A DNA stretch of 64,000 nt, from positions 310,001-374,000 of the forward strand of contig NZ_QRGD01000002.1 of NCBI RefSeq assembly GCF_003449015.1, in the 5' to 3' direction. Numbering within the stretch: position 1 is the first letter of the stretch; every line of letters starts with the position of its first letter. This DNA comes from Aureibaculum luteum. GTDB taxonomy: Bacteria > Bacteroidota > Bacteroidia > Flavobacteriales > Flavobacteriaceae. The translations under genes were made by a program, and so were the position numbers. Shown here piece after piece: positions 34,626-58,802 of this stretch. The notes under the pieces are model-generated. The model saw only the letters and a list, made by a program, of their open reading frames with translations, made no database searches and had not been told where the DNA came from.

Positions 34626-34695
34626 ACTATTTATAAGTTCATAGTTGTTGTTTGTCGATTAGATTATTGATTTATAGAAGTCTAAATTATATTTG
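34626..34695 (+). promoter_or_regulatory. Locus operator and promoter of the DUF4838 gene
   Basis: The operator core GTTGTTTGTCGA (34647-34658) has a weaker partner 21 bp upstream (ACTATTTATAAG, 34626). The exact -7 box TATATTTG (34688-34695) begins 34 bp after the GTC. The ATG is 24 bp beyond the -7 box. Confidence 0.6.
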
Positions 34696-34719
34696 AAAGT
34701 GGATATTTAAATATAAACT

Positions 34720-36993
34720 ATGACTTTTTCAAACAGAATTAACAAATTTCGGATAAAAACAAAAGTTATAAGCATTGGAATATTTTGCTTACTATTTAGT
34801 AATGTTTTTATTTCATGTTCTGATAGTAATATCAAATTGACAACTAATGGAACAACAGCTTATGAAATTGTTTATATTGGAAAAACATCTGAAAGTGTAT
34901 ATCAATCAGCAGCAATACTTAAAAAATATATAGACAAAATTGCAGGAACGGATATCAAACTAGTAGATGAGGGGTCTCAAAATAAAAAAAGTCATAAAGT
35001 ATATGTAGGCGGTCTTAATGATTTGAGTTTGACTCCACATGAAGTGAGTATCCAACTAAAAGATAAAAACATTTTTATTTCTGGAGGGTCTGATAACGCA
35101 TTACAGAATGCTGTTTATATTTTTATAGAGGATTATTTGGGTGTCAAATGGTTTTCACCAATTGTAGAGAAAATTCCTTCGCAAAATACAATTTCGATAC
35201 CCGATACTATTAGTTATAATTATAAGCCAGAAATTACTACAAGAACGGTACATTCAAGATTATTTTATGAGAACGATGAATTTGCTGACAAATTAAAAGT
35301 TACTACAGAAGCTTTTCCTACTTATGTGTCAGATGCAAGAGTCCATACTTTTCATAAATTTATTCCTGAAGAAAAATTTTACAAAGAACATTCTGAATAT
35401 TTTGCGTTAAGAGAGAATAAGAGATTGCCTACACAATTATGTTTGACGAATATTGATGTATATAATATAGTAAAAGATTCTGTGGCTTCTTTATTTAAGA
35501 AAAACCCCTTAGCGAAAGTTGTATCCGTAAGTCAAGATGACAATACACAATATTGTCAATGTGAAAATTGTTCAAAAATTGATGAAGAAGAGGGGAGTCC
35601 AGCTGGTTCGTTGATTTTGTTTGTAAATAAAATTGCTGAAAATTTCCCAGATAAGCAAATATCAACATTGGCGTATCAACATACTAGAAAGCCTTGTAAA
35701 ACTAAACCAAGAGAAAATGTATTGATTACACTATGTTCCATAGAGTGTGATAGAAGTGCTCCAATTACAGAAAAGTGCAATGATTTTACGGAAGATTTAA
35801 TGGGATGGAGTAAGTTGACAGATAATATCCGTATTTGGGATTATACCACACAATTCACTAATTTTTTGGCTCCATTTCCAAATATGAACACCTTACAACC
35901 TAATGTTCAATTATTCAGAGATAATAATGCAAAATGGGTTTTTGAACAACATAGTAATAACCCAAGTGAGTTATTTGAATTACGCTCATATATTACGGCA
36001 AAATTATTATGGAATCCTGATTTAGATGTTGATAGTTTAATTACTGAATTTACAGATGGTTATTATGAAGAGGCAGGAGTGTATGTTAAAAAATATGTCG
36101 ATTTAATTCATGCGGAACTTAAAAAACATCCTGATTTTTTCTTATTTCTTTATGGAGATCCCTCACAGGCTTTTGATTCTTATTTGAATCCTGAATTATT
36201 AGAGATTTATAAAGGATATTTTGATGCTGCGGAAAAAGCTGTGGCTACAAAACCTGAAGTATTAAAAAGGGTAAAAGAAGCTAGATTAAGTACTGATTAT
36301 GCTATTTTAGAAGCTGCTAAACAGAATCTTAATTCACAACTTTCCTTAGTATCTCAAGAAAATCCCAACAGTGCCAATGTGTTTATTAAAGAAAAATTGG
36401 AAGACTTTTACAAAACGTGTAAGGCTGCTGATATTAACTTAATGAATGAAATGGGCTTTACAGTAGAAGAATATTATAATTCTTATAAAAAAACAATTGA
36501 AGTCGCCATAAAACCTAATATAGCCAAAGGCAAAAAAGTAACCTTACTCACCAAGCCTAAAAAGTATGCTAATGAAAACCCACAGGTATTAACCGATGGA
36601 GCTCTTGGTGGTAATAATTTTTATGCCAATTGGTTAGGCTTCGAAGGCAATCATTTAGAAGCGGTTATAGACTTAGATTCCATACAAACCATAAGTTCTA
36701 TTTCTACAGCATTTTTACAAGTTACAAATCATGTTGTTTTTTATCCTTTAAATGTTAGTTATTATTACTCAAATGATAACAAAACATTCAAGAAGTTAGG
36801 TGTCTTGGTCAATGATGAGCCCTTAAGTAAAACTAGCAAAATAAATGACATCAAATATTTTGAATTTACTTTCCCAAAAGTTGCTGCTCGTTATATTAAA
36901 ATAAAGGCTGAGAATATGAATACAGCTCCGTATTGGCATCATGCTGCTGGGCTACCAAGTTGGATTTTTGCAGATGAAATAATTGTGGAATAG
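34720..36993 (+). CDS. DUF4838 lipoprotein with C-terminal discoidin-like domain
   Basis: This 757-residue protein has a lipobox at VFIS-C33. Residues about 40-180 resemble the alpha-glucuronidase/GH20-type N-terminal domain (AILKKYIDKIAG, KVYVGGLND, NALQNAVYIFIEDYLGVKWFSP). The DUF4838 core (about 180-590) includes SQDDNTQYCQCENCSKID and CSIECDRSAP, with several cysteines. The C-terminal about 135 residues form an F5/8-type (CBM32-like) domain: VLTDGALGGNNFYANW ... RYIKIKAEN ... WIFADEIIVE. The same domain type ends the minus-strand sulfatase in this window. DUF4838 proteins occur in glycan loci, probably as hydrolases, but I do not assign a reaction. Its own promoter carries the locus operator. 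Confidence 0.8.
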   Translation: MTFSNRINKFRIKTKVISIGIFCLLFSNVFISCSDSNIKLTTNGTTAYEIVYIGKTSESVYQSAAILKKYIDKIAGTDIKLVDEGSQNKKSHKVYVGGLNDLSLTPHEVSIQLKDKNIFISGGSDNALQNAVYIFIEDYLGVKWFSPIVEKIPSQNTISIPDTISYNYKPEITTRTVHSRLFYENDEFADKLKVTTEAFPTYVSDARVHTFHKFIPEEKFYKEHSEYFALRENKRLPTQLCLTNIDVYNIVKDSVASLFKKNPLAKVVSVSQDDNTQYCQCENCSKIDEEEGSPAGSLILFVNKIAENFPDKQISTLAYQHTRKPCKTKPRENVLITLCSIECDRSAPITEKCNDFTEDLMGWSKLTDNIRIWDYTTQFTNFLAPFPNMNTLQPNVQLFRDNNAKWVFEQHSNNPSELFELRSYITAKLLWNPDLDVDSLITEFTDGYYEEAGVYVKKYVDLIHAELKKHPDFFLFLYGDPSQAFDSYLNPELLEIYKGYFDAAEKAVATKPEVLKRVKEARLSTDYAILEAAKQNLNSQLSLVSQENPNSANVFIKEKLEDFYKTCKAADINLMNEMGFTVEEYYNSYKKTIEVAIKPNIAKGKKVTLLTKPKKYANENPQVLTDGALGGNNFYANWLGFEGNHLEAVIDLDSIQTISSISTAFLQVTNHVVFYPLNVSYYYSNDNKTFKKLGVLVNDEPLSKTSKINDIKYFEFTFPKVAARYIKIKAENMNTAPYWHHAAGLPSWIFADEIIVE

Positions 36994-37225
36994 TTTTAGG
37001 TTAGCATATATCAAAATCATGAACGTGTTTAATAGTCTGCTTTAATTTTATTGTAATTTAGTTTTCCTTATTGTGCTAAAATCAGGTCTAAGATTACAAT
37101 TCATATAAATACTTATGACAATTATTATTCAATAAATTTAAGTTTAATTGAGTTCTTTCTACATATAAGAATTCCTAATAAATGGTGTTAAATTATCTTA
37201 CTAAAAAAGACATCTTATTTCTATA
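36994..37225. other. Intergenic stretch before the second SusC
   Basis: AT-rich DNA after the DUF4838 gene. I see no gene, hairpin terminator or clear repeat here; the promoter region begins at about 37226. Confidence 0.6.
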
Positions 37226-37310
37226 GTTATTGAACTATTTCTGCTGGTTGTTAGTCGAAATTATTAGTTGAGTTTTATGATAACTTTAACTTTGTATTCA
37301 TAAACTCAAA
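37226..37310 (+). promoter_or_regulatory. Locus operator, promoter and leader element of SusC (37321)
   Basis: Core GTTGTTAGTCGAA (37247-37259) runs on into ATTATTAG (37260-37267). A partner GTTATTGAAC lies at 37226, 21 bp upstream. The exact -7 TAACTTTG (37287-37294) begins 33 bp after the GTC. The leader carries AACTCAAA (37303-37310), 10 bp before the ATG. Confidence 0.65.
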
Positions 37311-37320
37311 ATATATTTTT

Positions 37321-40300
37321 ATGAAACAAATTTTATTTAAGCTGTTGTTTTTTACTATAGTATTATGTTCGCATAGTATCTTAGCACAAACAACAGTGAC
37401 AGGAACAATTACAGATGCAGCAGGTGGCGAAACCCTTCCTGGTGTAAACATAATTGAAAAAGGCACAACCAATGGTATTACCTCCGATTTTGATGGTAAT
37501 TACAGTATAGATGTTGCTGAAGGAGCCACTTTACATTTTTCTTTTATTGGTTATACACCAAAAGAAGTTGTTGTAAATGGACAAACTACAATTAATATCA
37601 TTTTAGCTGAAAGTGCCGAGGCACTTGACGAAGTGGTAATTACTGCATTAGGAATCAAGAGAGAAGTGAAGTCTCTTGGTTATTCTATGACAGAATTGAA
37701 AGGTGAAGAATTGTCAAAAACGAATACCGTTAACCCGGTACAAGCTTTACAAGGCCAAGTTTCTGGTGTTAGTATTGGTAGCTCTGATGGTGGTCTTTTT
37801 GGTAACTCTAAAATACAGGTACGTGGAGTGTCAACTTTAAACTCTAGTAACAACCAGCCTATATTTGTAATAGATGGTGTTATTTTAGAAAATGGTACTT
37901 CCAATGAGAGTGCAGACTGGAATGGTAGTTCAAATGATTATGGTAATATTCTTAAAAACCTAAATCCTGATGACTATGCTAGTGTTTCTGTATTAAAAGG
38001 AGCCGCTGCCACAGCGTTGTATGGTTCAAGAGGTATTAATGGTGTTGTTTTAATTGAAACTAAAGATGGTGCAGGGTCAAAAGGTTTAGGCATTTCTGTA
38101 AAACAATCTTTTGGTGTTGACCATGTATATAAACAACCAGCATTACAAAATGAATATGGACCTGGTACTTTAGCAGGGTATATTGGCTATGGTAATAAGG
38201 ATACTAACGGTGATTATTTCAGTTATGATACGGAACAATTTTATTATAATGATGATGGAGATAGAACATTAATTAATCATGCAGGTGGTGGACTAAGTTA
38301 TGGACCTAAATTTGATGGTCAACCAATAATTGACTATGATGGAAATGTAATACCTTATAGTGCCAATACGAATAATATGAAAGATGCCTATGATGATGGG
38401 TTTAATTCAAATACTTCTGTATCATTGAGTGGTGGTAATGAAAAAGGTAATTTTTACTTATCAGATTCTTATAATACAAGAACTGGAACATTGCCAAACA
38501 ATAAATTTGAGAGAAATTCAATGTTATTTTCTGGTTCATATAACTTAGCATCTTGGTTAACAGCCAATGCAAGTGTATCATATACTACATCTATCTCTAA
38601 AAACCCTAGAAATGATATTTCTCAGAGTTTCTTTGATGGTACTTTTGAAAGAACTTACAATACGGAAAAGTATCAACAAGAGCAATATTGGTTAGCTTCT
38701 CATGGAGGTGTTACTAATGCCGCTTATGGTGATGAGTTCGCAAATGCACCAAATAGAGGTTTATGGTTTTCTTATGAAAAAAATAACCAAGAAAGAAAAG
38801 AGCAAGTGACTAGACCTATAGTACGTTTAACAGCTACTGTTGCAGATTGGCTTACGATTACTGCAGAAGGTAATATGAACTTTTATACTACTAAATATGA
38901 ACAAAAGGATTTAGGTAGTGGTTATGCTATGGAAGGTGGTTATTATCAATTAAGTCATGCTGATGATGTGAGTAAAACAGGTAAATTAACTTTTAATTTC
39001 ACTAAAGAATTTAATGAAGATCTAAAAGGTAGTTTATTGCTTGGTGGTGAAATTTGGGATCAAGAAAAGTCTAATACCAGAGTAAACACTGATGGTGGAT
39101 TGATTGTTCCGGGTAGATTCTATTTGGGGAACTCAAAGAAAACACTTCAGTCAGACGGTGGAATTTATGCTACCAAACAAATTAATTCAGCTTATTTTAT
39201 GGCAGATTTGTCTTATAAAGAGCAATTATACCTAACGGTAACAGGTAGAAATGACTGGTCATCTGCTTTAGTATATACAGACGGTACAGGTAATAATTCT
39301 TATTTTTACCCTTCAGTATCAACATCATGGATTTTTAACCAAACTTTTGAAATGCCAAAATGGGTTAGTTTTGGTAAATTAAGAGCATCATGGGCACAAG
39401 TGGGTAGTGATACCGATCCTTATTCAATTAACAGAGGATATTCAGGTGACAGGTATGAATTAAGTGGCGGTTTTGCTTATACAAACTCTGTAAATTCTGT
39501 TTTAGTAGATAGAAGTATAAAACCTGAACTTAAAAACTCGTTTGAAGTGGGTGCTGATGTTAGATTCTTTAAAAATCGTTTAGGAATTGACTTTTCTTAT
39601 TATAACGAGACAATTACAGAGCAAATAGGTCAAGTGCCTATTCCTTCAGTTTCTGGTTATAATGGATTGTTAACAAATGTAGGTACACTTACCAATACTG
39701 GTATTGAACTATCTTTAACAGGAACACCAATTAGAACAGATGATTTTAGTTGGAATTCTACCTTTAATTATTGGAAGAATACAACTAAAGTAAAAGACTT
39801 ACATGCTGACTATGGTGCATATAAAACGTTAGGGGGTAATATCAATTATGGTAACTTCCGTGTTGGTTCTGTAGCTTATGAAGGTGGTGAATATGGAGTA
39901 TTGATGTCTGATGCGGCTATCAAAGAGTACCAAGCTACTGACGTTAACGGTAATGAAATAGATAATCCAAATAATGGAAAGAACTTATTAACTTGGGTTG
40001 ATTCAAGACGTGGTGCATATTTTCAAAGAACAGGTGTGGCAACTGAAGTAGGTAAAATACAACCTGATTTTGAAGGATCTTGGAATAATGAATTTAGATA
40101 CAAAGGATTTAGTTTCTCTGTATTGTTAGATGCACGTTACGGTGGTCATATTGCTTCTTATAGTAGCCGTTACGGAACTGCTTATGGTTATTTAGAAGAA
40201 TCTTTAAGAGGTAGAGATGCCGAACATGGTGGTGTAACTTGGACTTCTCAACATGCAGACGAACAAGGAAGAGAGTACTCAGATGGTATAATTCCTGATG

Positions 40301-40728
40301 GTGTTTTTGAAGATGGGCAAATGGTTACAACTCCAAGTGGATCTAGCGTAGATGTTGGAGGGATGACGTATCAAGAAGCTTTTGATGCAGGTTATGTTGA
40401 GCCTACCCATGCAAGTTATTACAATTACAGAATTAATTCTTGGGGACAAGGTGTTGTAAACCCTGATTGGTTTACGGAATTAAAATATATTGCAGTTCGT
40501 AATATATCAATCGGTTATAACTTACCAAAGTCAGTAAGTAGCAGTATAGGAGCATCTAATCTTTATTTAGGTTTGAATGGTAGAAATCTAGGTTATTTAT
40601 ACAATTCTATGCCTAATGACATTAACCCTGAAAGTTTTAGAGGAACATCAAGTACAGAATCATATAGAGAACGTGCTTTTGCTCCATATTTGTCAAGTTA
40701 TACTATGACTATTCTTTTAGATTTTTAA
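37321..40728 (+). CDS. SusC/RagA-family TonB-dependent transporter
   Basis: This 1135-residue outer-membrane importer works with the SusD encoded 18 bp downstream. A signal peptide (about 1-22, SILAQ) is followed by a CarboxypepD_reg-like domain (about 24-105, ending DEVVITALG), a plug (about 115-250: ALQGQVSGVSIGSS, NQPIFVIDGVI, ATALYGSRGINGVVLIETK) and a 22-strand barrel ending in YTMTILLDF. It is intact. Its first about 110 residues are strikingly close to those of the SusC at 43130, whereas plug loops and barrel differ. No STN anti-sigma domain is present, so regulation by an ECF/anti-sigma pair is unlikely. Ligand unknown. Confidence 0.95.
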   Translation: MKQILFKLLFFTIVLCSHSILAQTTVTGTITDAAGGETLPGVNIIEKGTTNGITSDFDGNYSIDVAEGATLHFSFIGYTPKEVVVNGQTTINIILAESAEALDEVVITALGIKREVKSLGYSMTELKGEELSKTNTVNPVQALQGQVSGVSIGSSDGGLFGNSKIQVRGVSTLNSSNNQPIFVIDGVILENGTSNESADWNGSSNDYGNILKNLNPDDYASVSVLKGAAATALYGSRGINGVVLIETKDGAGSKGLGISVKQSFGVDHVYKQPALQNEYGPGTLAGYIGYGNKDTNGDYFSYDTEQFYYNDDGDRTLINHAGGGLSYGPKFDGQPIIDYDGNVIPYSANTNNMKDAYDDGFNSNTSVSLSGGNEKGNFYLSDSYNTRTGTLPNNKFERNSMLFSGSYNLASWLTANASVSYTTSISKNPRNDISQSFFDGTFERTYNTEKYQQEQYWLASHGGVTNAAYGDEFANAPNRGLWFSYEKNNQERKEQVTRPIVRLTATVADWLTITAEGNMNFYTTKYEQKDLGSGYAMEGGYYQLSHADDVSKTGKLTFNFTKEFNEDLKGSLLLGGEIWDQEKSNTRVNTDGGLIVPGRFYLGNSKKTLQSDGGIYATKQINSAYFMADLSYKEQLYLTVTGRNDWSSALVYTDGTGNNSYFYPSVSTSWIFNQTFEMPKWVSFGKLRASWAQVGSDTDPYSINRGYSGDRYELSGGFAYTNSVNSVLVDRSIKPELKNSFEVGADVRFFKNRLGIDFSYYNETITEQIGQVPIPSVSGYNGLLTNVGTLTNTGIELSLTGTPIRTDDFSWNSTFNYWKNTTKVKDLHADYGAYKTLGGNINYGNFRVGSVAYEGGEYGVLMSDAAIKEYQATDVNGNEIDNPNNGKNLLTWVDSRRGAYFQRTGVATEVGKIQPDFEGSWNNEFRYKGFSFSVLLDARYGGHIASYSSRYGTAYGYLEESLRGRDAEHGGVTWTSQHADEQGREYSDGIIPDGVFEDGQMVTTPSGSSVDVGGMTYQEAFDAGYVEPTHASYYNYRINSWGQGVVNPDWFTELKYIAVRNISIGYNLPKSVSSSIGASNLYLGLNGRNLGYLYNSMPNDINPESFRGTSSTESYRERAFAPYLSSYTMTILLDF

Positions 40729-40746
40729 TATAAAATAGATAAAAAA

Positions 40747-42606
40747 ATGAAAAAAATATTTCAATTCATATTAACGATGTCAGTCCTATTTGTTGTAGGA
40801 TGTGACAAAGATGATTTTGCAGATAAGAACAGTAACCCTTCTGAGCTTTCTCAAGCGGATACTAGGTTTCAAGTTACACAGACCATCAATCAAATGTATA
40901 ATGATGATTATACGATATGGTTTTATAATAATTTTGATTATATCTATCCTTGGAGCCAAATTACTACGGCAAGTGCCGGAGGTGGTAATAGTGAACTAAT
41001 GGTAGAGATGGATAACGCAGGTGGACATTCTACCTACCCAACATTTTTTGCAAATATTAGAGATATACGGTCTAAAATAGATGCATTACCAGAAGAGGAT
41101 AAAGCTCAAAGTTTGGGAATGAAAGGGATGACTTATCCTATATCTATCCAAACTTTTATGACCCAAACTGATGTTTCAGGTTCATTGGTGTATTCTGAAG
41201 GGGCAATGGCACCATATACAACACCTGCTCTTATTACGCCAATTTATGACAATCAAGAATTACTTTTTAACACTTGGTTAGAGGAGTTAAATGCAGCTAT
41301 TCCTTTATTAATGGCAGAAGACCAAATAGATATGGGTGCTCAAGATTTAATCTATAATGGTGATTATATGAAGTGGGCAAAGTTTGCTAATTTGTTAAAA
41401 TTAAGAATTGCAGCAAGGCTCGTTAATAAAGATAAAGCTCGAGCGATCCAAATTGTCGAAGAAGTAGTCAATTCAGCTGCTGGATATATGGATGAATTAG
41501 GCGACGATTTTATTTACCAAAAAGGTATCGAATATTATGGTACAGGTAATGGACAACAACCAGGTATCGGTGCAAAAAATCTTGTCGATTTTATGGTAGA
41601 CAATAAAGATCCAAGAGTTAGAGTATTGTTTGAAAAAAATGATTTTAATGGGGAAGTGGTACAAGCATTTATTGATGCAGGTAAACCTTTACCTCCTTAT
41701 GTAGATCAATACGTTGTAAAAGATGGAAGCGGTAATTTTTCAGGTTGGTCAGGTCCAGGAGAACCATGGGTGAGATACTTTGGTGTACCATTGGCTCCTG
41801 ATGCCGTATTGGCGTCAGAAAATGACATTTACTTTAGTCAAGGTATAAGAAATAGAATTAGTGAAGGAGGTGTTGAGAAAACATATACTTCTACTTCTGA
41901 TTTTTCTGAAAGATTAACACGTACAAGATTTTCTTTTACATATCCTACAAAACCAGGAGGTAGATTCTTAGAATTAAAAGATAATTATCCACCACTAAAA
42001 GTAATATTAGGGAGTGCTGCAGAAACCAACCTTTATTTAGCAGAGTTTAAATTATTAGGTGCTAATATTGCTGGAGATGCACAAGAATACTTTAATAAAG
42101 GTGTTGAGTTATCGATTATGCGTATGGACAAAATAGCTGAAGAACACAGATATCCTTACTATGACAATGACCCTGTATATGATGATGCAAGTATAGCTTC
42201 AGCCGGAGCAACTAAATTACAAGCTAATGAAATTACAGCTTTATTGGCAAGACCTGCTTATGATTTAAGTACTGATGGCTTAGAAAAAGTTTATATACAA
42301 CAATTGATTAACCATGCTGGTACACCACATGATACATGGACAACTGCACGTCGTTCAGGTGTACCTAAAACTGGTAGTGCTGTATGGCCAAGAGAACCTT
42401 TCTTATCTGGTGGTGTAGATTTAACGGTACCACGTAGATTTAAATCATCTGAACCATTAGAGTCAAGTAAAAACTATGCGAATGAACAAGCAGCTTTAGA
42501 TGAAGAAGGTTTTACTCCTGGTAGTAATGACCCAGTTCTTTTAAATACACAAAGACTTTGGTTTGATAAAGAAAACCCTCAATATGGAGCAGGACCAAAT
42601 AACTAA
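40747..42606 (+). CDS. SusD-like lipoprotein (SusD-like_2 type)
   Basis: This 619-residue surface lipoprotein, lipobox FVVG-C19, partners the SusC just upstream. It opens with DKDDFADKNSNPSEL, typical of the RagB/SusD-like_2 branch. Helical-repeat segments include YMKWAKFANLLKLRIAARLVNKDKARA and LYLAEFKLLGANIAGDAQEYFNKGVELSI. It ends with a motif found in all three such proteins of this locus (TQRLWFD). It is longer than classic SusD, with extra loops at about 130-180 and 310-360. Substrate is unknown. An intrinsic terminator lies 130 bp beyond its stop codon. Confidence 0.92.
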   Translation: MKKIFQFILTMSVLFVVGCDKDDFADKNSNPSELSQADTRFQVTQTINQMYNDDYTIWFYNNFDYIYPWSQITTASAGGGNSELMVEMDNAGGHSTYPTFFANIRDIRSKIDALPEEDKAQSLGMKGMTYPISIQTFMTQTDVSGSLVYSEGAMAPYTTPALITPIYDNQELLFNTWLEELNAAIPLLMAEDQIDMGAQDLIYNGDYMKWAKFANLLKLRIAARLVNKDKARAIQIVEEVVNSAAGYMDELGDDFIYQKGIEYYGTGNGQQPGIGAKNLVDFMVDNKDPRVRVLFEKNDFNGEVVQAFIDAGKPLPPYVDQYVVKDGSGNFSGWSGPGEPWVRYFGVPLAPDAVLASENDIYFSQGIRNRISEGGVEKTYTSTSDFSERLTRTRFSFTYPTKPGGRFLELKDNYPPLKVILGSAAETNLYLAEFKLLGANIAGDAQEYFNKGVELSIMRMDKIAEEHRYPYYDNDPVYDDASIASAGATKLQANEITALLARPAYDLSTDGLEKVYIQQLINHAGTPHDTWTTARRSGVPKTGSAVWPREPFLSGGVDLTVPRRFKSSEPLESSKNYANEQAALDEEGFTPGSNDPVLLNTQRLWFDKENPQYGAGPNN

Positions 42607-43031
42607 GAACAATTCCTTTATGTTTTTACTTGTTTTTACAAATTAAACGCTCCTATGGAGAGAGTAGAACTTCTAGTTTAGCCACATCTGTGCTTTAAAA
42701 TATAGTTCTTGTTAAGTTTGTTATTTGAGTTAGTAATTAAAAAGAGTCTGAGAAATCAGACTCTTTTTTTATTTTACAATTAACATTTTTATTTTCTGAA
42801 TTTATTGATGATTTTATTTTTTTATTGAATACGTAGTATTAGTATTAATGAAAAATTACTTCTTATGAATGGGTTTAAATAGTATTAACATTTATCTAAA
42901 AAGAATTGAGATTTTAATAGATTTAGAACTTGAAAAATATTCCAATTTTTTTATGTTGTTTTTTTGGAACTTCCTTATTATCATTTATTAATAAATTCAA
43001 GGAATTATTAAAGAAACAATATATTAATCCA
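42607..43031. other. Intergenic stretch between SusCD pairs
   Basis: Contains the terminator at 42739-42770. Otherwise it is AT-rich sequence in which I see no gene. Confidence 0.6.
42739..42770 (+). terminator. Intrinsic terminator after first intact SusCD pair
   Basis: Stem AAAGAGTCTGA (42741-42751), loop GAAA, complementary arm TCAGACTCTTT (42756-42766), then a T tract. Closely similar to the terminator at 48009-48041. Confidence 0.9.
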
Positions 43032-43118
43032 GTTATTAAGTAGAAAAAAAATGTTGTTGGTCGAAATTATTAGTAAAATTTTAGGATAATTTATTATCTT
43101 TAACTCAATAAACTCAAA
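43032..43118 (+). promoter_or_regulatory. Locus operator, promoter and leader element of SusC (43130)
   Basis: Core GTTGTTGGTCGAA (43053-43065) continues ATTATTAG (43066-43073), differing at one of 21 positions from the copy at 37247. A partner GTTATTAAGTAG lies at 43032, 21 bp upstream. The -7 box TATCTTTA (43095-43102) begins 35 bp after the GTC. AACTCAAA (43111-43118) precedes the ATG by 11 bp. Confidence 0.65.
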
Positions 43119-43129
43119 TTAATATATTT

Positions 43130-46285: not shown

Positions 46286-46289
46286 AAAT

Positions 46290-48082: not shown

Positions 48083-48173
48083 TGTCGTTTGTGCGTTAAA
48101 AACTGTCGTTAGTCGAATTGGTTATTCAATTTTAAGAAAATTTTAACTATCTTTCCTACCTTATTAACTCAAA
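48083..48173 (+). promoter_or_regulatory. Locus operator, promoter and leader element of SusC (48183)
   Basis: GTCGTTAGTCGAA (48105-48117) is preceded exactly 21 bp upstream by GTCGTTTGTGCG (48084-48095), the clearest tandem pair in the window. The -7-like TATCTTTC (48148-48155) begins 36 bp after the GTC. AACTCAAA (48166-48173) lies 9 bp before the ATG. Confidence 0.6.
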
Positions 48174-48182: not shown

Positions 48183-51100
48183 ATGAACCAAAAATTTAGG
48201 TATTTATTTATGCTTGTGGCATTACTCTTTTTACAAGGAGCTATTGCTCAAACTATTACTGGTAAGGTTACCGATGAATCTGGCATTGCTCTTCCAGGAG
48301 CAAATGTTATTGAAAAAGGAACTACCAATGGAACAACAACCGATTTTGATGGAAATTATAGCATTGAAGTCTCAGAAGAGGCAACATTGCAATTTTCTAT
48401 GATAGGTTATTCCGAAAAGGCAGTTGTAGTCGGTGGACAAACCACTATTAATGTATCCTTGGCAGAAGGTACACAACTAGACGAAGTAGTTGTTACAGCC
48501 TTAGGTATTAAACGTGCCGAAAAAACATTAGCCTATGCCCAACAAACTGTTGGTGGCGAAGAGCTTACAAATTCCAGAGACGTTAACTTTGTTAACAGTA
48601 TCTCTGGTAAAGCAGCGGGTGTAGAAATTAGAAAAAGTAGTTCAGGGCCAGGTGGTTCTACCAAAATTCAAATTAGAGGTAGTAAATCCTTAAGTGGAGA
48701 TAGTTCTCCTCTATTTGTAATTGATGGTATACCTATGGTAAACAACAGAGGTAGTCAACCAGGAGTTTGGGATGGTGTTGATCAAGGAGATGGTTTATCT
48801 CAATTAAACCCTGACGATATTGAAAGTATGAGTATCTTAAAAGGAGCAAATGCTGCTATCTTATATGGTAGTCAAGGTGCGAATGGAGTTATAGTAATTA
48901 CAACAAAAAGTGGTAAAGCGGGGACAACAGTTGTTAAAGTAAATTCAGGTATTACTTTTGAAAGTATTATCGCATTACCAGAATTGCAATACAGATATGG
49001 TAGTGAAGGTGGTGCTAAAGAAAACTGGTCGACTACTAGAGGAGATTATGATAGTAGTTATGTGGATGATTGGTTTGAAACTGGAGCAAATTACTTCAAT
49101 TCAGTTTCGGTAAGCGGTGGTAATGATAAAACCCAAGCCTATTTTTCGTATGCAAATACTACGGCATCTGGTATAACACCTGGTAATGATTACGGTAAAA
49201 ATAACGTATCATTTAAGCAGTCTACAAAATTGTTTAATGATAAAGTTAAAGTTACTTCTAATATTATTTTAGCACAAGAAAAAACAGATAATAGAAACCG
49301 AGCAGGGTATTACAACAATCCGCTTACTGGTTTGTATTGGTTTCCAAGAGACAGAGATATTAATGACTTTAGAGGTGATAATTATAGAACGTTTAACACT
49401 GATAGAAATGTTTATGAACAAAACTGGTTTGTAGTTGACCATCATCAATCAAATCCATATTGGTTATTGAATGAAGAATCTCAAGAAGACAAAACTAAAA
49501 GGGTTATTGGAAGTTTAAATTTAGATTATAACATTACTGAGCAGCTTACTTTTCAAATTAGAGGAAATATGGATTATGCAGTAAAAGAATATGAAACAAT
49601 ACGTAACGGTGGTGGTAATACAACAACAGTTTCGGCAAATGGAAACTGGATTTATGAAAAGTATGATGATACGAGTACCTATTTGGATGGTATTTTAAGT
49701 TACACCAATAACTTTGGTGATTTCTCTCTTACTGCTTTAGGAGGAGCCACCTACCAAAATACTAATTACGGTAATGGTGTGGGAGTATACCCTGGTGCAG
49801 CAGAAGATCAATTGCTGTATGCCAATGAGTTTTACTTCAATAATTTAACGGATGTAATTCAAGTTAGATCTAATTTAAATAACGGTAAAACTAGTAAAAT
49901 AGAAAAACAATCTTTATTTGGTAACGTAACTATAGGTTTTAAAGAAATGCTATTTTTAGACGTTGCTGGTAGAAACGACTGGGCATCTACGTTAGCATTG
50001 ACGGGTAATGATTCTTATTTTTACCCATCTGTCGGTCTTACGGCAATTTTAAGCGAAATGTTTGAAATGCCAGAGGCAATTAGTTTTGCTAAGTTAAGAG
50101 GTACATATGCTAAGATTGGTAATGAAGTACCATATAACAGAATTTTCCCAAGACATAATATTAATGCAGATGGTTCTGTTGGATTTAATACTGTTAAACC
50201 ATTTTTAGATGCGAAACCGGAAATTATTACAACTACTGAGATAGGATTTGATTTTAGATTTTTTCAAAGTAGATTAGGTATTGATTTTACGTATTATAAT
50301 ATAAATAGTCAAGATCAGTTCATTCAGATAAATGAACCTATTGAAGATTATACTTCCTTTTTCGTTAACGCAGGTGAAATTGAAAATAAAGGGGTTGAAC
50401 TTACCTTAACTGGTAAGCCAATTGTAACTGAAGATTTATCTTGGAATACAGCAATTAACTATTCTAAAAATACAAATAAAATTATCGAATTGCATCCAAG
50501 TGTAGAGACTATAGGTCAAGGTGGTTCTGAAGGTTTTAGATATACTTTAATTGAAGGAGGAGCTATTAGTGATTTGTATGCCTTTAAATTTTTGAGAGAT
50601 GACGAAGGTAGAATTATGTTGGATGATGTTAGTGGAAGACCAAGAAAAACGGCAACAAGAGAATTAATAGGTAACGCTGAGCCAGACTATGCTATTGGTT
50701 GGAGCAATACAGTTACTTATAAGAACTGGGCCTTGAATATGCAGATTAATGGTAAATTTGGTGGTTATACAGTAAGCCAAACAGAGGCTTTATTTGATGG
50801 TAACGGTGTTTCAGAAAGATCTGCGGCAGCTAGAGATAGAGGTTATGAAAATATTAATGCGGTGCAAAATGGTGTAGCAGTTACTCAAATTGATCCTTTT
50901 ACGTATTATGATGCTGTTGGTGGTAGAAATGGTATTGATGAAGCTCATATTTATGACAGAACAAGTATCAGGTTAGCTCAATTATCATTATCTTATAATT
51001 TTAAGGTTGATAGTGTTGATTGGCTTAAAAATGCTTCCTTATCTTTTATAGGAAACAACCTATTCTTTTTCCATAAGGATGCACCATATGACCCTGAATT

Positions 51101-51194
51101 ATCTCAAAGTACAGGAAGAAATGAACCTGGTTCAGATAATTACAATTTACCATCAACGAGAACGTATGGTTTAAACCTAAGTTTAACATTTTAA
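48183..51194 (+). CDS. SusC/RagA-family TonB-dependent transporter
   Basis: 1003 residues, intact. It has a signal peptide (about 1-22, GAIAQ), a CarboxypepD_reg-like domain (about 24-100), DEVVVTALGIKR, a plug with GSTKIQIRGSKSLSG, SPLFVIDGIPM and NAAILYGSQGANGVIVITTK, and a barrel ending YGLNLSLTF. The plug-to-barrel layout makes it a useful ruler for the broken SusC at 12680. The SusD partner begins after 11 bp. Unlike the two preceding SusC proteins, its signal peptide and N-terminal domain are clearly diverged. Ligand unknown. Confidence 0.95.
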   Translation: MNQKFRYLFMLVALLFLQGAIAQTITGKVTDESGIALPGANVIEKGTTNGTTTDFDGNYSIEVSEEATLQFSMIGYSEKAVVVGGQTTINVSLAEGTQLDEVVVTALGIKRAEKTLAYAQQTVGGEELTNSRDVNFVNSISGKAAGVEIRKSSSGPGGSTKIQIRGSKSLSGDSSPLFVIDGIPMVNNRGSQPGVWDGVDQGDGLSQLNPDDIESMSILKGANAAILYGSQGANGVIVITTKSGKAGTTVVKVNSGITFESIIALPELQYRYGSEGGAKENWSTTRGDYDSSYVDDWFETGANYFNSVSVSGGNDKTQAYFSYANTTASGITPGNDYGKNNVSFKQSTKLFNDKVKVTSNIILAQEKTDNRNRAGYYNNPLTGLYWFPRDRDINDFRGDNYRTFNTDRNVYEQNWFVVDHHQSNPYWLLNEESQEDKTKRVIGSLNLDYNITEQLTFQIRGNMDYAVKEYETIRNGGGNTTTVSANGNWIYEKYDDTSTYLDGILSYTNNFGDFSLTALGGATYQNTNYGNGVGVYPGAAEDQLLYANEFYFNNLTDVIQVRSNLNNGKTSKIEKQSLFGNVTIGFKEMLFLDVAGRNDWASTLALTGNDSYFYPSVGLTAILSEMFEMPEAISFAKLRGTYAKIGNEVPYNRIFPRHNINADGSVGFNTVKPFLDAKPEIITTTEIGFDFRFFQSRLGIDFTYYNINSQDQFIQINEPIEDYTSFFVNAGEIENKGVELTLTGKPIVTEDLSWNTAINYSKNTNKIIELHPSVETIGQGGSEGFRYTLIEGGAISDLYAFKFLRDDEGRIMLDDVSGRPRKTATRELIGNAEPDYAIGWSNTVTYKNWALNMQINGKFGGYTVSQTEALFDGNGVSERSAAARDRGYENINAVQNGVAVTQIDPFTYYDAVGGRNGIDEAHIYDRTSIRLAQLSLSYNFKVDSVDWLKNASLSFIGNNLFFFHKDAPYDPELSQSTGRNEPGSDNYNLPSTRTYGLNLSLTF

Positions 51195-51205
51195 TAAGAA
51201 AAGAA

Positions 51206-52783
51206 ATGAAAAAAATAATATATATATTTTTGACAGCACTTTTATTTAATTTAAGTGCATGTACAGATGATTTTGAAAAGTTAAATGAAGACCCTTATCA
51301 GATTACTGATGAATCATTAACACAAGATTTTAACAATGTAGGGGCATTTTATCCGCCCATGTTAAAAAATCTATTTGGCGACCAAATTGAGCACAACTTA
51401 TCTCATGATTCTTGGGTAAGACATTTGGGAACTCCAACAAATTTTTTAGGTGGAATAAATAATACGACATATTATATTAGTTGGAATACCTATTGGAATA
51501 GAATTTACGGTAGCATTATGTCTCCTTCTGCTCAGGTAATGAAAGTTGCAGAAGCTGAAGGTTACCCTGTTTTTGTAGAATGGGCAAGATTAATAAGAAT
51601 TTTAGGGATGTCTAGATTAACAGCTTACCATGGTCCAGTTATATTTACAAAGTTTGGTGAAGAACCTGCCTTGTATGATTCAGAACCAGTACTTTATAAT
51701 GCATTCTTTACGCAGTTAGATGAAATTCAGGCGGTTTTTAATGCAAATACTGATTACGGTGGACTTGGAAAATTTGATGCTAGTTATGGAGGGAGTATTC
51801 CTCAATGGAACAAATTGATCAATAGTTTACGTTTGCGTTTGGCAATGCGTTTGTCAAAAGTAGATCCTGCTTTGGCGAAGACCCAAGGAGAAAAAGCGTT
51901 GAGCGAACCAGGAGGTTTAATAGAAGCTAACGGAGATAATTTTTTAATTTCTTTATATGGAGGTATTTTCCCTCCTGCAAGAATTAGTTTTGGTTGGGGA
52001 GATACGAGAATGAGTGCTTCAATGGAGTCTATCCTTATAGGATATAAAGATGCTAGAGTTGCTAAATTCTTTGATCCGGCAACTGATGATACGTTATATC
52101 CAGATCATCCTGATTATCCTTATAAAGGAATAAGAAATGGGGCGGTTTTAGTTGCAAAAGGTGATAGGTTGAGTTATTCTAATATAAGCGATGATTTTAA
52201 TAGTGTTGAAAGTCGACGTTGCTTCACCGCTGCTGAAGTTAAATTTCTAAAGGCAGAAGCGGCCTTAAGAGGTTGGGCTGGTGCAGGTGATGCCAAAGAG
52301 AATTATGAGGCTGGCGTTAGTACTTCTTTTGCAGATTGGGGTGCTGGTAGTGCTGCAGAGTATTTAGCAGACAATACGAGTTTGCCATTAGACTATAATG
52401 ATCCTAAAGCAGATCCAGGTCCAATTAATGATTTTGTATCTAGAATTACAAATACGGTAGCTTGGGATGATGGGGCAAGTAATGAAATTAAGCTAGAAAA
52501 AATTATTACCCAAAAATGGATTGATGGATATACAAACTCAATCGAGCCATGGGTAGATCATCGTAGAACTGGATACCCAAAACTACCTTACAATTATAAA
52601 AATGATAGTAGTGCAGATTGGGGAGTAATACCAGCAAATGAATTCTTAAAAAGGCAAGTATTCTTAACAAGCCAGAGAGAAAACAATGCATCTTCAGTTG
52701 CTGAAGCTACAGGTTTCCTTGGTGGTCCAGACTTAATTAGTACTAGACTTTGGTGGGACACTGGTTCTGCATCAAATTTTTAA
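51206..52783 (+). CDS. SusD-like lipoprotein (SusD-like_2 type)
   Basis: 525 residues, lipobox LSA-C19, opening CTDDFEKLNEDPYQIT. Family segments are visible: PQWNKLINSLRLRLAMRLSKVD, FTAAEVKFLKAEAALRGWAGAGDAKENYEAGV, IITQKWIDGYTNSIEPWVDHRRTGYP and the STRLWWD ending. It shares architecture with the SusD proteins at 40747 and 46290 but not with the classic SusD at 15250, so the three pairs of this locus form their own subgroup. A strong terminator follows 19 bp after the stop codon. Confidence 0.93.
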   Translation: MKKIIYIFLTALLFNLSACTDDFEKLNEDPYQITDESLTQDFNNVGAFYPPMLKNLFGDQIEHNLSHDSWVRHLGTPTNFLGGINNTTYYISWNTYWNRIYGSIMSPSAQVMKVAEAEGYPVFVEWARLIRILGMSRLTAYHGPVIFTKFGEEPALYDSEPVLYNAFFTQLDEIQAVFNANTDYGGLGKFDASYGGSIPQWNKLINSLRLRLAMRLSKVDPALAKTQGEKALSEPGGLIEANGDNFLISLYGGIFPPARISFGWGDTRMSASMESILIGYKDARVAKFFDPATDDTLYPDHPDYPYKGIRNGAVLVAKGDRLSYSNISDDFNSVESRRCFTAAEVKFLKAEAALRGWAGAGDAKENYEAGVSTSFADWGAGSAAEYLADNTSLPLDYNDPKADPGPINDFVSRITNTVAWDDGASNEIKLEKIITQKWIDGYTNSIEPWVDHRRTGYPKLPYNYKNDSSADWGVIPANEFLKRQVFLTSQRENNASSVAEATGFLGGPDLISTRLWWDTGSASNF

Positions 52784-52938: not shown

Positions 52939-53006
52939 ATACTTAAATGAATTAAGTATGACGTTAGTCTAAATTATTAGTATTCACGTAGCATTAAGTA
53001 TTTTTT
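52939..53006 (+). promoter_or_regulatory. Locus operator and promoter of the FG-GAP lipoprotein
   Basis: GACGTTAGTCTAA (52960-52972) continues ATTATTAG (52973-52980), the same downstream extension as at the SusC genes. The partner 21 bp upstream (ATACTTAAATGAA, 52939) is weak. A poor -7 (TATTTTTT, 52999-53006) begins 32 bp after the GTC. Confidence 0.5.
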
Positions 53007-53019: not shown

Positions 53020-56000
53020 ATGACAAAAACATACAAAATTATTATTACCCTAGCAGTTTTCGTGTTAACAAACTGTAATAAAAGCGAGGAAAATGATAGT
53101 AGTACTGCTACGGCAAAAAACGAGAATACATTATTTAGCTTGGTGTCTTCTAATGACTCTAATTTAACTTTCGAAAACACCATAACGCAAACCAGAGAGA
53201 ACAATCATATGATAAACTCTCAATTTATATCTGGTGGAGGCGTAGCCGTTGGTGATATAAATAATGATGGTTTGGACGATATTTATTTTACGGGAAATCA
53301 AGTAAGGGATAAATTATTTTTAAACAAGGGAAATTTAAAATTTGAAGATATTTCTGATAAAGCGGGTATTACCAAGGATAATAATTGGTCAACTGGCGTA
53401 ACGTTTGTAGATATTGATAATGATGGCGATAAGGATATTTATGTTTGTAGGTTTACTTATCTAGAAAATGAAAAAAGTCAAAACCAGTTATACATTAACA
53501 ATGGAGACCAAACCTTTGCCGAAAAAGCATCCTCTTTTGGTTTAGATGATAAAGGTTTTTCCATGCAATCGACCTTTTTCGATTTTGATAACGATGGGTT
53601 GTTAGATGTTTACGTTATAAATCAACCGCCAAGTATCCCAAACATTGGAGATAAAATGAGTTTAGAACAGTTTCCAGATATTGCTTTTAGTGATCGATTA
53701 TATAAAAACTTGGGCAATGGAAAATTTGAAGATTATACCGAAAAGTCCAATCTTAGAAATTTTGCTTTCGGATTATCAGCAACTACAGGAGACTTTAACA
53801 ACGACGGTTGGCAAGATATTTATGTTTCCAATGATTTTGATGTGGCGGATCATGTTTATATTAATCAAAAAGACGGCACTTTTAAAGATGAAGTACGCAC
53901 GGCCACTAAACATATTTCAAACTTTAGTATGGGTAACGATATTGCGGACTATGATAATGATGGAAATTTAGATGTTATGGTCGTAGACATGGTAGCAGAA
54001 GATCATAAAAGGATTAAAACGAACATGAGTGGTATGAATCCCGAACAGTTTTGGTCTATCGTAAATAAAGGTGGTCACTATCAATATATGTTTAATACAT
54101 TACAAAGAAATAATGGAAATGGTACGTTTAGTGAATTAGGTCAACTCGCGGGCGTTACAAGTACAGACTGGAGTTGGGCACCATTATTGGCCGATTTTGA
54201 CAACGACGGTTTTAAAGACCTTTTTGTAACCAACGGCGTTGTTTACAATAACCGTTATAGCGATTTAACGACAAAATATGACCAGAAAGTTGATAGTATA
54301 AACAAGGTAGCCCAACAGAAAGGAGTAAATCCGAACGCCATGATAGACGTGATGGATTTTGTAAATATGGCTCCAACAGATAAATTACCGAACTATATTT
54401 ATAAAAATAACGGAGACTTAACTTTTAATAATAAAGTAAAAGATTGGGGCATGGAAATACCAACACTATCAAATGGAGCAGCTTACGCCGATTTTGATTT
54501 AGATGGTGATTTAGATTTGGTTGTGAATAATATTAATGAAACCGCATCATTATATAAAAATACAACTACAGACAGAAGATTAGGTAATTATATACGCTTT
54601 AAGTTTGTTACTGATAATAACGAACCTGTTTATGGGACAAAAATAGCATTGTATAAAAAAGATTCATTGTTGCAAGTTGTTCAAATAACGAATTCGAGAG
54701 GGTTTATGTCTAAAAGTGAAGATGTAGCTCATTTTGGAATTGGAGATGAAAAAATTATTGATAAGGCCATAATTCAATGGAATGATGGCACAACTTCAAC
54801 ACTTTCTAATTTAGAGGTAAATAAAGTCCATCAGATAAAGACAGAAGAGTTACAAAGAGAAGCAACTCAAGATAAACCTAATAAAACTTTACAATTTCAA
54901 GATGTAACCCAATCTCTTAATTTAGATAAAGTGAACCATCAAGAGAATAAAAATGATGATTATGCTTATGAAGTATTGCTTCCACATAAAATGTCGCAAT
55001 TTGGACCTGCCATAGGTGTTGGTGATGTAAATGGTGATAATAAAGAAGATTTTTATTTAGGCGGTGCTGCAGGGTATTCAGGGAAGCTATATATACAAAA
55101 TAATAAAGGAACTTTTGATGAAATTATAGATGGAGCTTGGTCTCAAGACAAGGCTAGTGAAGATATGGGTATCGCATTAATAGATGTTGACAATGATAAA
55201 GATTTAGATCTATTTGTTGTAAGTGGTGGTAATGAATTTAATGAAGGCGATACTGCGTTACAAGACAGGTTATATATAAATAACGGCAGAGGGAAATTTA
55301 CCAAAAGCAATAATTTACCGAAATACCTTACTAGTGGATCGTGTGTAATGCCTTTTGATTTTGACAAAGACGGCGATTTAGATCTCTTTATTGGTGGACG
55401 ATTAACACCGAGAAAATATCCGCATGCAGCAAATAGTTATTTACTGGAAAATACTGGAGGAAAATTTATTGATGCTTCAGATAAAATAGCCCCTGAGATG
55501 AAAGATTTAGGAATGGTAACTGCTGCAAGTTGGACAGATTATAATAATGATGGTTTTGAAGACTTAATAGTGGTAGGTGAGTGGATGCCAGTAACCTTAT
55601 TTATGCAATCGGAAAATGGTACTTTCAAGAAAGAAACCATTCCAAATAGCGAAGGATGGTATTATGAAGTTAAAACGGCGGACATGGACAATGACGGAGA
55701 TAATGACATCATTGTTGGTAATCTCGGTTTAAATTACAAATATAAAGCAAACTCAAAAGAACCTTTTGAAGTTTACAGCTATGATTTTGACAGTAATGGA
55801 AGTTTAGATATTGTGTTGAGTTATTATGAACATGGAATTGCGTTTCCTGTAAGAGGTAAAAGTTGTTCAACGCAACAAATTCCATCGCTAAAAGAGAAAT
55901 TTCCAACTTATGAAGAATTTGGAAATTCTAATTTACAAAATATTTATGGTAGTACGCTCACTGACGCATTGAACTTAAAAGCAAAAACATTTGCATCCGC

Positions 56001-56382
56001 AATTATTGAAAATGGAGGTGATGGTAAATTTATTATTAAACCTTTGCCATCATTGGCTCAAGTATCTTCAATAAATAGCATTTTAATTGATGATTATAAT
56101 TTGGATGGTAATAAAGACATGCTGATTTCAGGAAATTTATATGTATCAGAGATAGAAACACCTCGTAATGATGCAGGTACAGGGCTACTGTTACATGGAG
56201 ATGGTAAGGGTAATTTCACTTCAGTTTCTATTCAAGAAAGTGGTTTTTACACGCCAAACGATGTAAAAGACATGAAAATGATTGAAATTGGTGATAAAAA
56301 CATCATTTTGGCAGCTAAAAATAATGATTACCTCCAAGCCGTTGAATTTTTTAGTTTGGAGGAACTTCGTAAAAGTAATTAA
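53020..56382 (+). CDS. FG-GAP/VCBS-repeat lipoprotein with ASPIC/UnbV domain (CRTAC1-like)
   Basis: 1120 residues, lipobox VLTN-C19. At least 14 calcium-loop FG-GAP/VCBS units of the form D-x-[DN]-x-DG-x2-D-[IL] are visible (GDINNDGLDDIYF, VDIDNDGDKDIYV, FDFDNDGLLDVYV, GDVNGDNKEDFYL and others), implying two beta-propellers. Between them (about 520-610) lies an ASPIC/UnbV segment (GNYIRFKF ... FGIGDEKIIDKAIIQWNDGT). No catalytic residues are evident. Such CRTAC1-like lipoproteins often accompany SusCD pairs in Bacteroidota, where their role is not established; surface binding or scaffolding is inference. It has its own promoter with the locus operator, placing it with the SusC genes in regulation. 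Confidence 0.88.
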   Translation: MTKTYKIIITLAVFVLTNCNKSEENDSSTATAKNENTLFSLVSSNDSNLTFENTITQTRENNHMINSQFISGGGVAVGDINNDGLDDIYFTGNQVRDKLFLNKGNLKFEDISDKAGITKDNNWSTGVTFVDIDNDGDKDIYVCRFTYLENEKSQNQLYINNGDQTFAEKASSFGLDDKGFSMQSTFFDFDNDGLLDVYVINQPPSIPNIGDKMSLEQFPDIAFSDRLYKNLGNGKFEDYTEKSNLRNFAFGLSATTGDFNNDGWQDIYVSNDFDVADHVYINQKDGTFKDEVRTATKHISNFSMGNDIADYDNDGNLDVMVVDMVAEDHKRIKTNMSGMNPEQFWSIVNKGGHYQYMFNTLQRNNGNGTFSELGQLAGVTSTDWSWAPLLADFDNDGFKDLFVTNGVVYNNRYSDLTTKYDQKVDSINKVAQQKGVNPNAMIDVMDFVNMAPTDKLPNYIYKNNGDLTFNNKVKDWGMEIPTLSNGAAYADFDLDGDLDLVVNNINETASLYKNTTTDRRLGNYIRFKFVTDNNEPVYGTKIALYKKDSLLQVVQITNSRGFMSKSEDVAHFGIGDEKIIDKAIIQWNDGTTSTLSNLEVNKVHQIKTEELQREATQDKPNKTLQFQDVTQSLNLDKVNHQENKNDDYAYEVLLPHKMSQFGPAIGVGDVNGDNKEDFYLGGAAGYSGKLYIQNNKGTFDEIIDGAWSQDKASEDMGIALIDVDNDKDLDLFVVSGGNEFNEGDTALQDRLYINNGRGKFTKSNNLPKYLTSGSCVMPFDFDKDGDLDLFIGGRLTPRKYPHAANSYLLENTGGKFIDASDKIAPEMKDLGMVTAASWTDYNNDGFEDLIVVGEWMPVTLFMQSENGTFKKETIPNSEGWYYEVKTADMDNDGDNDIIVGNLGLNYKYKANSKEPFEVYSYDFDSNGSLDIVLSYYEHGIAFPVRGKSCSTQQIPSLKEKFPTYEEFGNSNLQNIYGSTLTDALNLKAKTFASAIIENGGDGKFIIKPLPSLAQVSSINSILIDDYNLDGNKDMLISGNLYVSEIETPRNDAGTGLLLHGDGKGNFTSVSIQESGFYTPNDVKDMKMIEIGDKNIILAAKNNDYLQAVEFFSLEELRKSN

Positions 56383-56463
56383 AAGAATAAAAAAATCAAT
56401 TTTGGGATAGAATTTTTCATGATGTGATAATAGAAATAATACTTATTATAAGTTTAAATTTTT

Positions 56464-56534
56464 GATGTTTAGACTTTTGGAACTGTCATTCGTCGAATAT
56501 TTTATAATAAGAGTTTTTTTCTTATTTACTTTTA
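56464..56534 (+). promoter_or_regulatory. Orphan locus operator and promoter
   Basis: GTCATTCGTCGAA (56485-56497) has a partner GATGTTTAGAC 21 bp upstream (56464). The -7-like TACTTTTA (56527-56534) begins 35 bp after the GTC. No gene follows on this strand before the terminator at 56609. Confidence 0.5.
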
Positions 56535-56540
56535 CAGTAA

Positions 56541-56640
56541 TCAACTAATTATAACATTTTATAGGGAAATAGCAATAATATTTAAGTTGAGTAATTTGAA
56601 TTAGTATTAAAGAGCTAGAGAAGTCTAGCTCTTTTTTTTT
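56541..56640 (+). ncRNA. Candidate short transcript from the orphan promoter
   Basis: About 100 nt between the expected start just downstream of the orphan -7 box and the terminator. No ATG occurs in it on this strand, so it is not a small coding gene with an ATG start. It could be a PUL-associated small RNA or the leader plus tail of a deleted SusCD unit. Existence of the transcript is inferred from promoter and terminator only. Confidence 0.35.
56609..56640 (+). terminator. Intrinsic terminator
   Basis: Stem AAAGAGCTAGA (56609-56619), loop GAAG, arm TCTAGCTCTTT (56624-56634), then a T tract. It has the same design as the terminators behind the SusD genes, but stands 226 bp past the FG-GAP gene and just after the orphan promoter. 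Confidence 0.85.
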
Positions 56641-56781
56641 ATAAAAAGATATTTAATTTGAGTGATACATCTAGGATTTTTAACCTACTAAAGAGTTGTG
56701 TAACATAACAATTTATTTCTACCGTTTATTGGCTTAAAACAAGAAATTGAGAACGCACAGCATACTGAATAGTTTGTACTT

Positions 56782-58620: not shown

Positions 58621-58651
58621 TTTTTGAAATTGTTAATTTTTCTAATAGATC

Positions 58652-58722
58652 CTAAAATAAATATAAAATTTTAAAAGAGGTGAATTTTTTAGACAATAGC
58701 TCCTTTAAATTAGATAAACAAC
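58652..58722 (-). promoter_or_regulatory. Possible locus operator of the minus-strand sulfatase
   Basis: Read on the minus strand, GTTGTTTATCTAA (58722 to 58710) is followed exactly 21 bp later by AGCTATTGTCTAA (58701 to 58689). A -7-like TATTTTAG (58659 to 58652) begins 35 bp after the second GTC. Matches are weaker than at the SusC genes. Confidence 0.35.
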
Positions 58723-58732
58723 GGAAATAAAC

Positions 58733-58802
58733 TACATTCGTTGAATTATTTAAGTTGTTTGTCTTTTAAAATATTAGAATTGTTAAGATTGAATTATATT
58801 TA
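58733..58802 (+). promoter_or_regulatory. Locus operator and promoter of the plus-strand sulfatase
   Basis: TACATTCGTTGAA (58733-58745) and GTTGTTTGTC (58754-58763) form a tandem pair with 21-bp offset. The -7-like TATATTTA (58795-58802) begins 34 bp after the second GTC, the same geometry as at the DUF4838 gene. The ATG is at 58831. Confidence 0.5.

Follow-up and report, generated by a model that had tools for sequence, protein, structure and literature searches.

The stretch of Aureibaculum luteum DNA analysed here, termed the window, comprises 64,000 nucleotides (nt), and all position numbers refer to the whole of it; its own genome (5.1 Mb, 48 contigs) is called G000, and other genomes are numbered likewise. 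A sequence-only reading had singled out in it a shared tandem operator with a 21-bp period, which lies beside -7-type promoters and was read as the site of an activator. Our analysis supports this proposal and extends it to other contigs, species and genera: the repeated element is a genuine operator, and five of the seven listed sites stand. Moreover, a LytTR-type response regulator very probably binds it, which would explain a predicted glycan regulon together with a probable small RNA. We favour the LytTR regulator because it fits the occurrence of the operator, the position of the regulator gene and the architecture of the sites. The sites, their conservation, the co-occurrence and linkage with the LytTR gene and the anatomy of the small RNA are all found by sequence analysis.

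The tandem operator in the window

Bacteroidetes promoters have -7 and -33 elements. All seven stretches claimed in the sequence-only reading are indeed present, and their TAnnTTTG-like boxes begin 32, 33, 34, 34, 35, 35 and 36 bp past the GTC of the core. Two boxes, at 34688 and 37287, are exact -7 boxes. The TT at core positions 5-6 is found in both copies at 7/7 sites and three cores continue into the extension AAATTATTAG, as had been described. The strict core GTYGTTNGTCGAA, however, is exact only at 37247, 43053 and 48105, the remaining four sites being variants.

The five firm sites, at 34647, 37247, 43053, 48105 and 56485, all lie on the + strand. The operator before the DUF4838 gene (34626..34659) has its upstream half-site at 34626, its core at 34647-34659 and its -7-like box at 34688, and is kept in G009, G007 and G016. 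Three copies precede susC-susD pairs. The one before SusC1-SusD1 (37226..37259, -7-like box at 37287) is found in G009 and as a variant in G011, while the one before SusC2-SusD2 (43032..43065, -7-like box at 43095) is the top window site in the profile search and is kept in G009. The third, before SusC3-SusD3 (48084..48117, -7-like box at 48148), is the clearest tandem copy and is found in G009 and G016. DUF4838 or susC homologues also have an operator copy upstream of them in G009, G007, G016 and G011. The site at 56485 (56464..56497, -7-like box at 56527-56534) is conserved in the same four genomes and has no same-strand protein gene after it. It had been assigned to a sulfatase promoter, which is wrong, since the next gene (56782-58620) lies on the opposite strand.

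The two other listed sites, also on the + strand, fared less well. The one at 52960 (52939..52972, -7-like box at 52999), before the FG-GAP/UnbV-ASPIC lipoprotein gene, fits the profile (E 0.24, genome), but its core is lost in G009 and the FG-GAP genes of G016 have no operator site upstream. For both reasons, G009 being the nearest relative, it was downgraded from firm to marginal. At this promoter the core differs between the two genomes at several key bases while the flanking sequence is nearly identical, a case of natural loss or gain. The site at 58754 (58733..58766), the second of the claimed sulfatase promoters, precedes a + strand sulfatase gene and is weak: in a profile from which it had been left out, it scores 7.7 bits and has an E value of 0.64 when only the window is considered. 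Its core is kept in G009 and G007 and absent from the sulfatase promoter of G016, and we regard the site as doubtful and do not count it as a member.

The sites were also ranked with matrices of 6-11 sites each, whose training sets were limited to non-orthologous promoters from other species. Among ~128,000 window positions, 43053, 48105 and 56485 took ranks one to three and 34647 the 10th, with weaker ranks for 52960 (17th), 37247 (19th) and 58754 (98th). It is also confirmed that the operator is absent at the GH92 gene (32341) and at susC of the first polysaccharide utilization locus (PUL), as had been noted.

The claimed 21-bp period is borne out by 20 non-redundant sites of the genus, in which lag 21 stands 4.9 standard deviations above 40 other lags. 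Half-sites of the upstream copy, which is degenerate, score -1.3 bits on average and reach 4 bits or more in 2/20 sites, with G at -21 in 13/20, T at -17 in 19/20, T at -16 in 16/20 and a purine at -14 in 20/20 sites. The element thus has the architecture of a LytTR-type site, namely two direct repeats with starts 21 bp apart (9 bp + 12 bp), of which the upstream copy is degenerate. LytTR regulators typically use direct repeats of ~9 bp, ~12 bp apart, upstream of -35 (PMC6193735, PMC4064291, PMC2766830).

The operator occurs together with a LytS-LytTR pair

The strict core is found four times in the whole G000 genome, and the fourth copy, inside a Roc-COR gene, is taken as chance. This Roc-COR-LRR gene (L006:2951-12602, G000:C40) adjoins gyrase/topoisomerase IV, putAbiC and PIN_8 genes. 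The relaxed pattern GWYRTTNGTCKAA has 9 genome matches, 5 of them listed sites, and its reversed control 17; the count is partly circular because the pattern was drawn from the sites. As to whether the motif might be common in random DNA, a possibility raised with the original proposal, the Aureibaculum matrix gives 1 match of at least 15 bits in 400 kb of G000 off the regulon.

A profile of 20 sites, with 58754 excluded, was searched in 17 genomes of the genus. The best E value ranged from 2.6e-5 to 1.5e-3 in G000, G009, G007, G011, G016, G002 and G005; of the ten others, nine gave 0.068 to 0.46 and one had no match at E <= 1. The contrast is partly circular because the training sites came from five of the seven. 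Non-circular support is provided by two G000 sites outside the training set. One precedes a NagB/PIG-L gene and has a similar counterpart in five species; the other precedes a gene for a 384-aa putative lipoprotein and is kept in three.

As a candidate binder, the sequence-only reading had pointed to the NarL-type response regulator that starts at 63785. The pattern search of the 17 genomes found operator sites where this regulator is missing, in G002 and G005, in which the operator lies 78 bp before a susC and also before an MFS permease gene and a GH92 gene. These genomes have a cluster in which the genes of a LytTR response regulator and of a His_kinase-type sensor diverge from a GH92 operon. 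The G002 regulator (P0002) carries Response_reg (2.9e-21) and LytTR (2.4e-16) domains, and Pfam assigns His_kinase to the sensor (P0003). In G000 the LytTR orthologue (G000:C40:103986) stands beside a LytS-like sensor and is 74% identical to P0002; it was assigned by this identity, the receiver and LytTR domains having been found on P0002. Orthologues of at least 70% identity to P0002 are present in seven genomes (G000, G009, G007, G011, G016, G002 and G005), the same seven genus genomes that have strong operator matches. No close LytTR orthologue was found in the other 10/17 genus genomes, several of them incomplete, where the best match is 55% or less. In 7/7 positive genomes the sensor-regulator pair has a divergent operon as its neighbour, and the promoter of that operon contains the operator.

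Across the family, 63/397 genomes contain a match to P0002 at E <= 1e-80. Of these, 60 lie outside the genus, and from these 60 we read 27 loci in 20 genera. In 26/27 loci a search with the Aureibaculum matrix gives a top match that is upstream of the LytTR pair and on the other strand. These 26 divergent sites score 14.7-27.2 bits (next best at most 9.8); their distance from the start of the regulator is 1.12-1.20 kb in 25 loci and 1.45 kb in one (L227). Moreover, ~387 kb round the pair in 10 genomes (9 genera) contain 31 matches of at least 15 bits, all outside predicted genes: 10 are divergent sites already counted and 21 are new, two of the latter with no gene start within 400 bp in the stretch read. 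Genes downstream of the other-genus sites include seven long SusC-like open reading frames, of which two were examined with Pfam and both confirmed. They also include a fucosidase and an MFS permease (Pfam-confirmed), and GH92-like and NagB-like genes, named by eye from N-terminal sequence.

In the mechanism that we propose, a glycan cue would cause the LytS-like sensor to phosphorylate the LytTR regulator. The latter would bind two direct half-sites GTYRTTNGT, starts 21 bp apart and the upstream copy degenerate, and, bound just upstream of the -33/-7 promoter, would activate transcription. The operator copy at 56485 would drive a terminated small RNA of ~100 nt. Direct binding, activation, the inducing glycan and transcription of the RNA are what we infer.

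The predicted regulon

At E <= 1 the profile has 11 matches in G000, six of them in the window (52960 included). The five others belong to the C46 fucosidase-sulfatase operon, the C40 operon divergent from the sensor-regulator pair (GH92, sodium symporter, GH130, GH92, GH2 and GH20), the C40 NagB/PIG-L gene, the C3 putative lipoprotein gene and an intragenic position on C1. Predicted targets in the window, all on the + strand, are the DUF4838 protein (34720..36993), SusC1 and SusD1 (37321..42606), SusC2 and SusD2 (43130..47984) and SusC3 and SusD3 (48183..52783); the FG-GAP_3/UnbV_ASPIC lipoprotein (53020..56382) is a possible target. Because mannosidases, a mannoside phosphorylase, a hexosaminidase, fucosidases, a glucosamine-6-phosphate enzyme and sulfatases come together, the predicted regulon, which includes GH29 and SusCD, suggests a programme for the use of N-glycans (mannose, N-acetylglucosamine, fucose and sulfate). 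In G016 a PSCyt1/PSCyt2/PSD1 gene lies under the operator (L178:9594-12024), and in G002 a 785-aa gene that looks similar (L363:5036-7473) follows a weak site.

A probable small RNA downstream of site 56485

Five species have in common, after the operator at 56485, a -7-like box, an invariant 25-nt segment and a terminator. This anatomy points to a probable small RNA of ~100 nt (56541..56640, + strand), whose ends are predicted from the -7-like box and the terminator. The 25-nt segment (56584..56608, + strand), identical in the five species, is a candidate region for pairing with susC leaders. It is followed by an intrinsic terminator (56609..56634, + strand) with an 11-pair stem and a T run; compensatory changes are seen in 2/11 pairs, and 98.2% of cells pair. 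No start is conserved in the reading frame that spans the segment, and the RNA was therefore taken as non-coding. RNAalifold also gives candidate pairs in the 5' part of the RNA, for which we claim no covariation.

A conserved 21-mer (up to 2 mismatches) was found in 6/100 genomes including G000, one of them (G013) being a chance match inside a coding gene. The small-RNA model is strong in 3/397 family genomes (G000, G011 and G016); G007 and G009, which match it on direct search of their loci, evidently lie outside the 397-genome draw. There is one strong copy per genome in the five Aureibaculum-group genomes so far. Among 80 NarL-regulator loci the two with a strong match to the model are those of A. 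flavum and A. marinum (best elsewhere E 0.19), and weak matches outside the genus occur in G059, G103 and G433 (E 0.003-0.009). Rfam gave 0 matches at the gathering score for window positions 31000-64000. Two weak G000 matches, at 42714 and 47953 (E 0.003 and 0.008), were rejected: both coincide with the end of a SusD gene or follow it, and they resemble terminators.

Pairing was analysed for 27/30 susC leaders, leaving out L094, which has no start, and L077 and L081, in which the leader start is not clear; from the shuffle and complement test, which counts perfect complements, the G008 leaders were excluded as their starts are unclear. A perfect complement of at least 8 nt to the 25-nt segment is present in 11/27 susC leaders versus 9/189 other leaders. 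Random intergenic 25-mers do as well in 53/2000 cases by mean length and in 90/2000 by count at 7 nt. Energies of duplexes between the leaders and a 70-nt stretch of the small RNA were discarded as too noisy in AT-rich DNA. ACTCAA or ACTTAA is found shortly before the ATG in 18/27 G000 susC leaders. We also observed TAACTYAAA or TAATTCAAAT shortly before the ATG of many susC genes (G000 L066-L095; G002, G012). For pairing with susC leaders these results are only suggestive, and that the RNA would pair with them and damp SusC synthesis is the least certain part of our proposal. Only tentatively do we put forward the wider idea that LytTR would switch on SusCD together with a small RNA whose 25-nt segment would act as an anti-leader to susC mRNAs. 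Damping or cross-PUL prioritisation would then be built into the PUL operator, and the RNA would be an independent flavobacterial counterpart of FopS. FopS itself is reported to bind close to the start codon of susC in a high-mannose N-glycan PUL and so to repress that gene (PMC11697453).

Alternative explanations

The NarL-type regulator at 63785, at the end of the same locus, is an alternative binder. Its start and a TPR-HisKA_3 kinase occupy 61879..64000 (+ strand); its closest named relatives are those of Aureibaculum flavum and A. marinum, and the kinase (61879-63783) has relatives of 61-97% identity in 7/16 genus-mates and a 47% relative in an eighth. It is adjacent, and it is 87-99.5% identical in four other species, which have the kinase-regulator pair at 79% or more. 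However, we judged it not to be the cognate regulator because it is absent (E <= 1e-45) from the operator-bearing G002 and G005. Conversely, G003, G010, G012 and G014 have the regulator (83-85%), yet their operator E value is never better than 0.068. In other genera operators were found beside LytTR pairs, NarL-type neighbourhoods having been scanned at only one locus set. We therefore regard binding by the NarL-type regulator as very unlikely. A regulator encoded elsewhere, of the AraC-type hybrid two-component system (HTCS) or SusR-like kind, would make the LytTR pair a mere neighbour. The HTCS_Man motifs of Bacteroides thetaiotaomicron, predicted to control alpha-mannan genes, consist of two 16-bp sites and a 5-bp spacer and so have a 21-bp period too (PMC3878776). 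Thus, the period alone decides nothing; presence and linkage decide for LytTR, since in all but one of the other-genus loci no match scores higher than the operator copy upstream of the LytTR pair, and since the operator tracks the presence or absence of the pair within the genus. The pair linked to the operator is LytTR + His_kinase, and no AraC-type or SusR-type regulator was found linked to it, HTCS genes elsewhere not having been searched. Such a regulator is in our view quite unlikely.

That the repeats are a chance resemblance among AT-rich susC promoters might be argued from the weak 58754, the marginal 52960 and a first pattern drawn from the sites themselves. We consider this extremely unlikely: several species have sites outside the training set in front of NagB-like and lipoprotein genes, and 31/31 matches in other genera fall outside predicted genes. 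For the site at 56485, a leader, a read-through transcript or an antisense transcript against the convergent sulfatase gene could take the place of a small RNA. The next gene is indeed convergent, and in G011 the core is followed, 331 bp on, by the start of a + strand gene. However, the terminator, with its compensatory changes, lies ~140 bp before the sulfatase stop in G000, the five-species conservation drops past it, and the frame over the conserved segment varies upstream between species, with no conserved start (by eye). Such a transcript is an improbable explanation.

Several observations weigh against the LytTR regulon with its small RNA as we propose it. Within the genus, the LytTR gene of G000 is on another contig (C40) than the window, the FG-GAP site is not kept in G009, and weak matches (E 0.07-1), taken as a group, occur among the ten negative genomes. 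Moreover, 6/10 of these genomes are less than 90% complete, and the co-occurrence does not amount to 17 independent events because the seven positives look like about two clades. In other genera, locus L232 has no divergent site (only 11.0 bits, elsewhere) and that of L227 is farther out. The 12-bp spacing is not a constant feature of AlgR sites (PMC4064291). As for pairing, shuffled segments do as well in 155/2000 cases by mean length and 221/2000 by count at 7 nt, and 13/300 shuffles do as well by energy. The ACTCAA/ACTTAA leader element also occurs where the RNA is lacking (3/8 leaders in G002, 5/10 in G012 and 1/10 in G008).

Other observations in the window

The susC of the first PUL is split into overlapping frames (12680-14026 and 13975-15240) that cover TIGR04056 positions 1-387 and 563-981, a frameshift or assembly error. 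In addition, a free-standing DsbD_N domain protein (8702-9151) adjoins a full DsbD-like protein (6643-8634), whose N-terminal domain it shares.

Significance and comparison with known systems

Among the entries listed in a literature search, which covered titles and the beginnings of abstracts and few subscription papers, none links a flavobacterial PUL to a LytTR regulator, to such an operator or to such an RNA. If the LytTR regulon holds true, PUL regulons would become readable across the Flavobacteriaceae, a regulator relative being present at the above threshold in 63 family genomes, and PUL genes scattered over the genome would be one programme. The small RNA would offer a direct test of whether marine flavobacteria tune SusC by RNA as Bacteroides does.

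FopS and GibS of B. thetaiotaomicron are likewise short RNAs, and FopS acts on susC. Compared by description only, FopS belongs to a family of 14 members with canonical promoters, a shared R1' seed and binding to RbpB, whereas the RNA described here has a PUL-operator promoter and lacks such multicopy paralogy. The LytTR family (AgrA, VirR, AlgR and SilA) and HdrR/BrsR likewise use two imperfect direct repeats ~12 bp apart upstream of the promoter, and here, too, a site is located in a promoter at the regulator's own locus. The half-site tabulated for the HdrR/BrsR relatives is of the ACCACTTAN type, but here it is GTYRTTNGTC. In contrast to that family, the predicted function here is glycan use, and the Aureibaculum regulon would span several contigs and include a probable small RNA. 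Finally, HTCS_Man and SusR of Bacteroides PULs share with the present system direct-repeat operators with a long spacer, SusC/SusD and mannosidase genes and the use of alpha-mannan or N-glycans. Their output is AraC-type and their sensor a single-chain hybrid, whereas here a separate LytTR regulator and a His_kinase sensor would take these roles.

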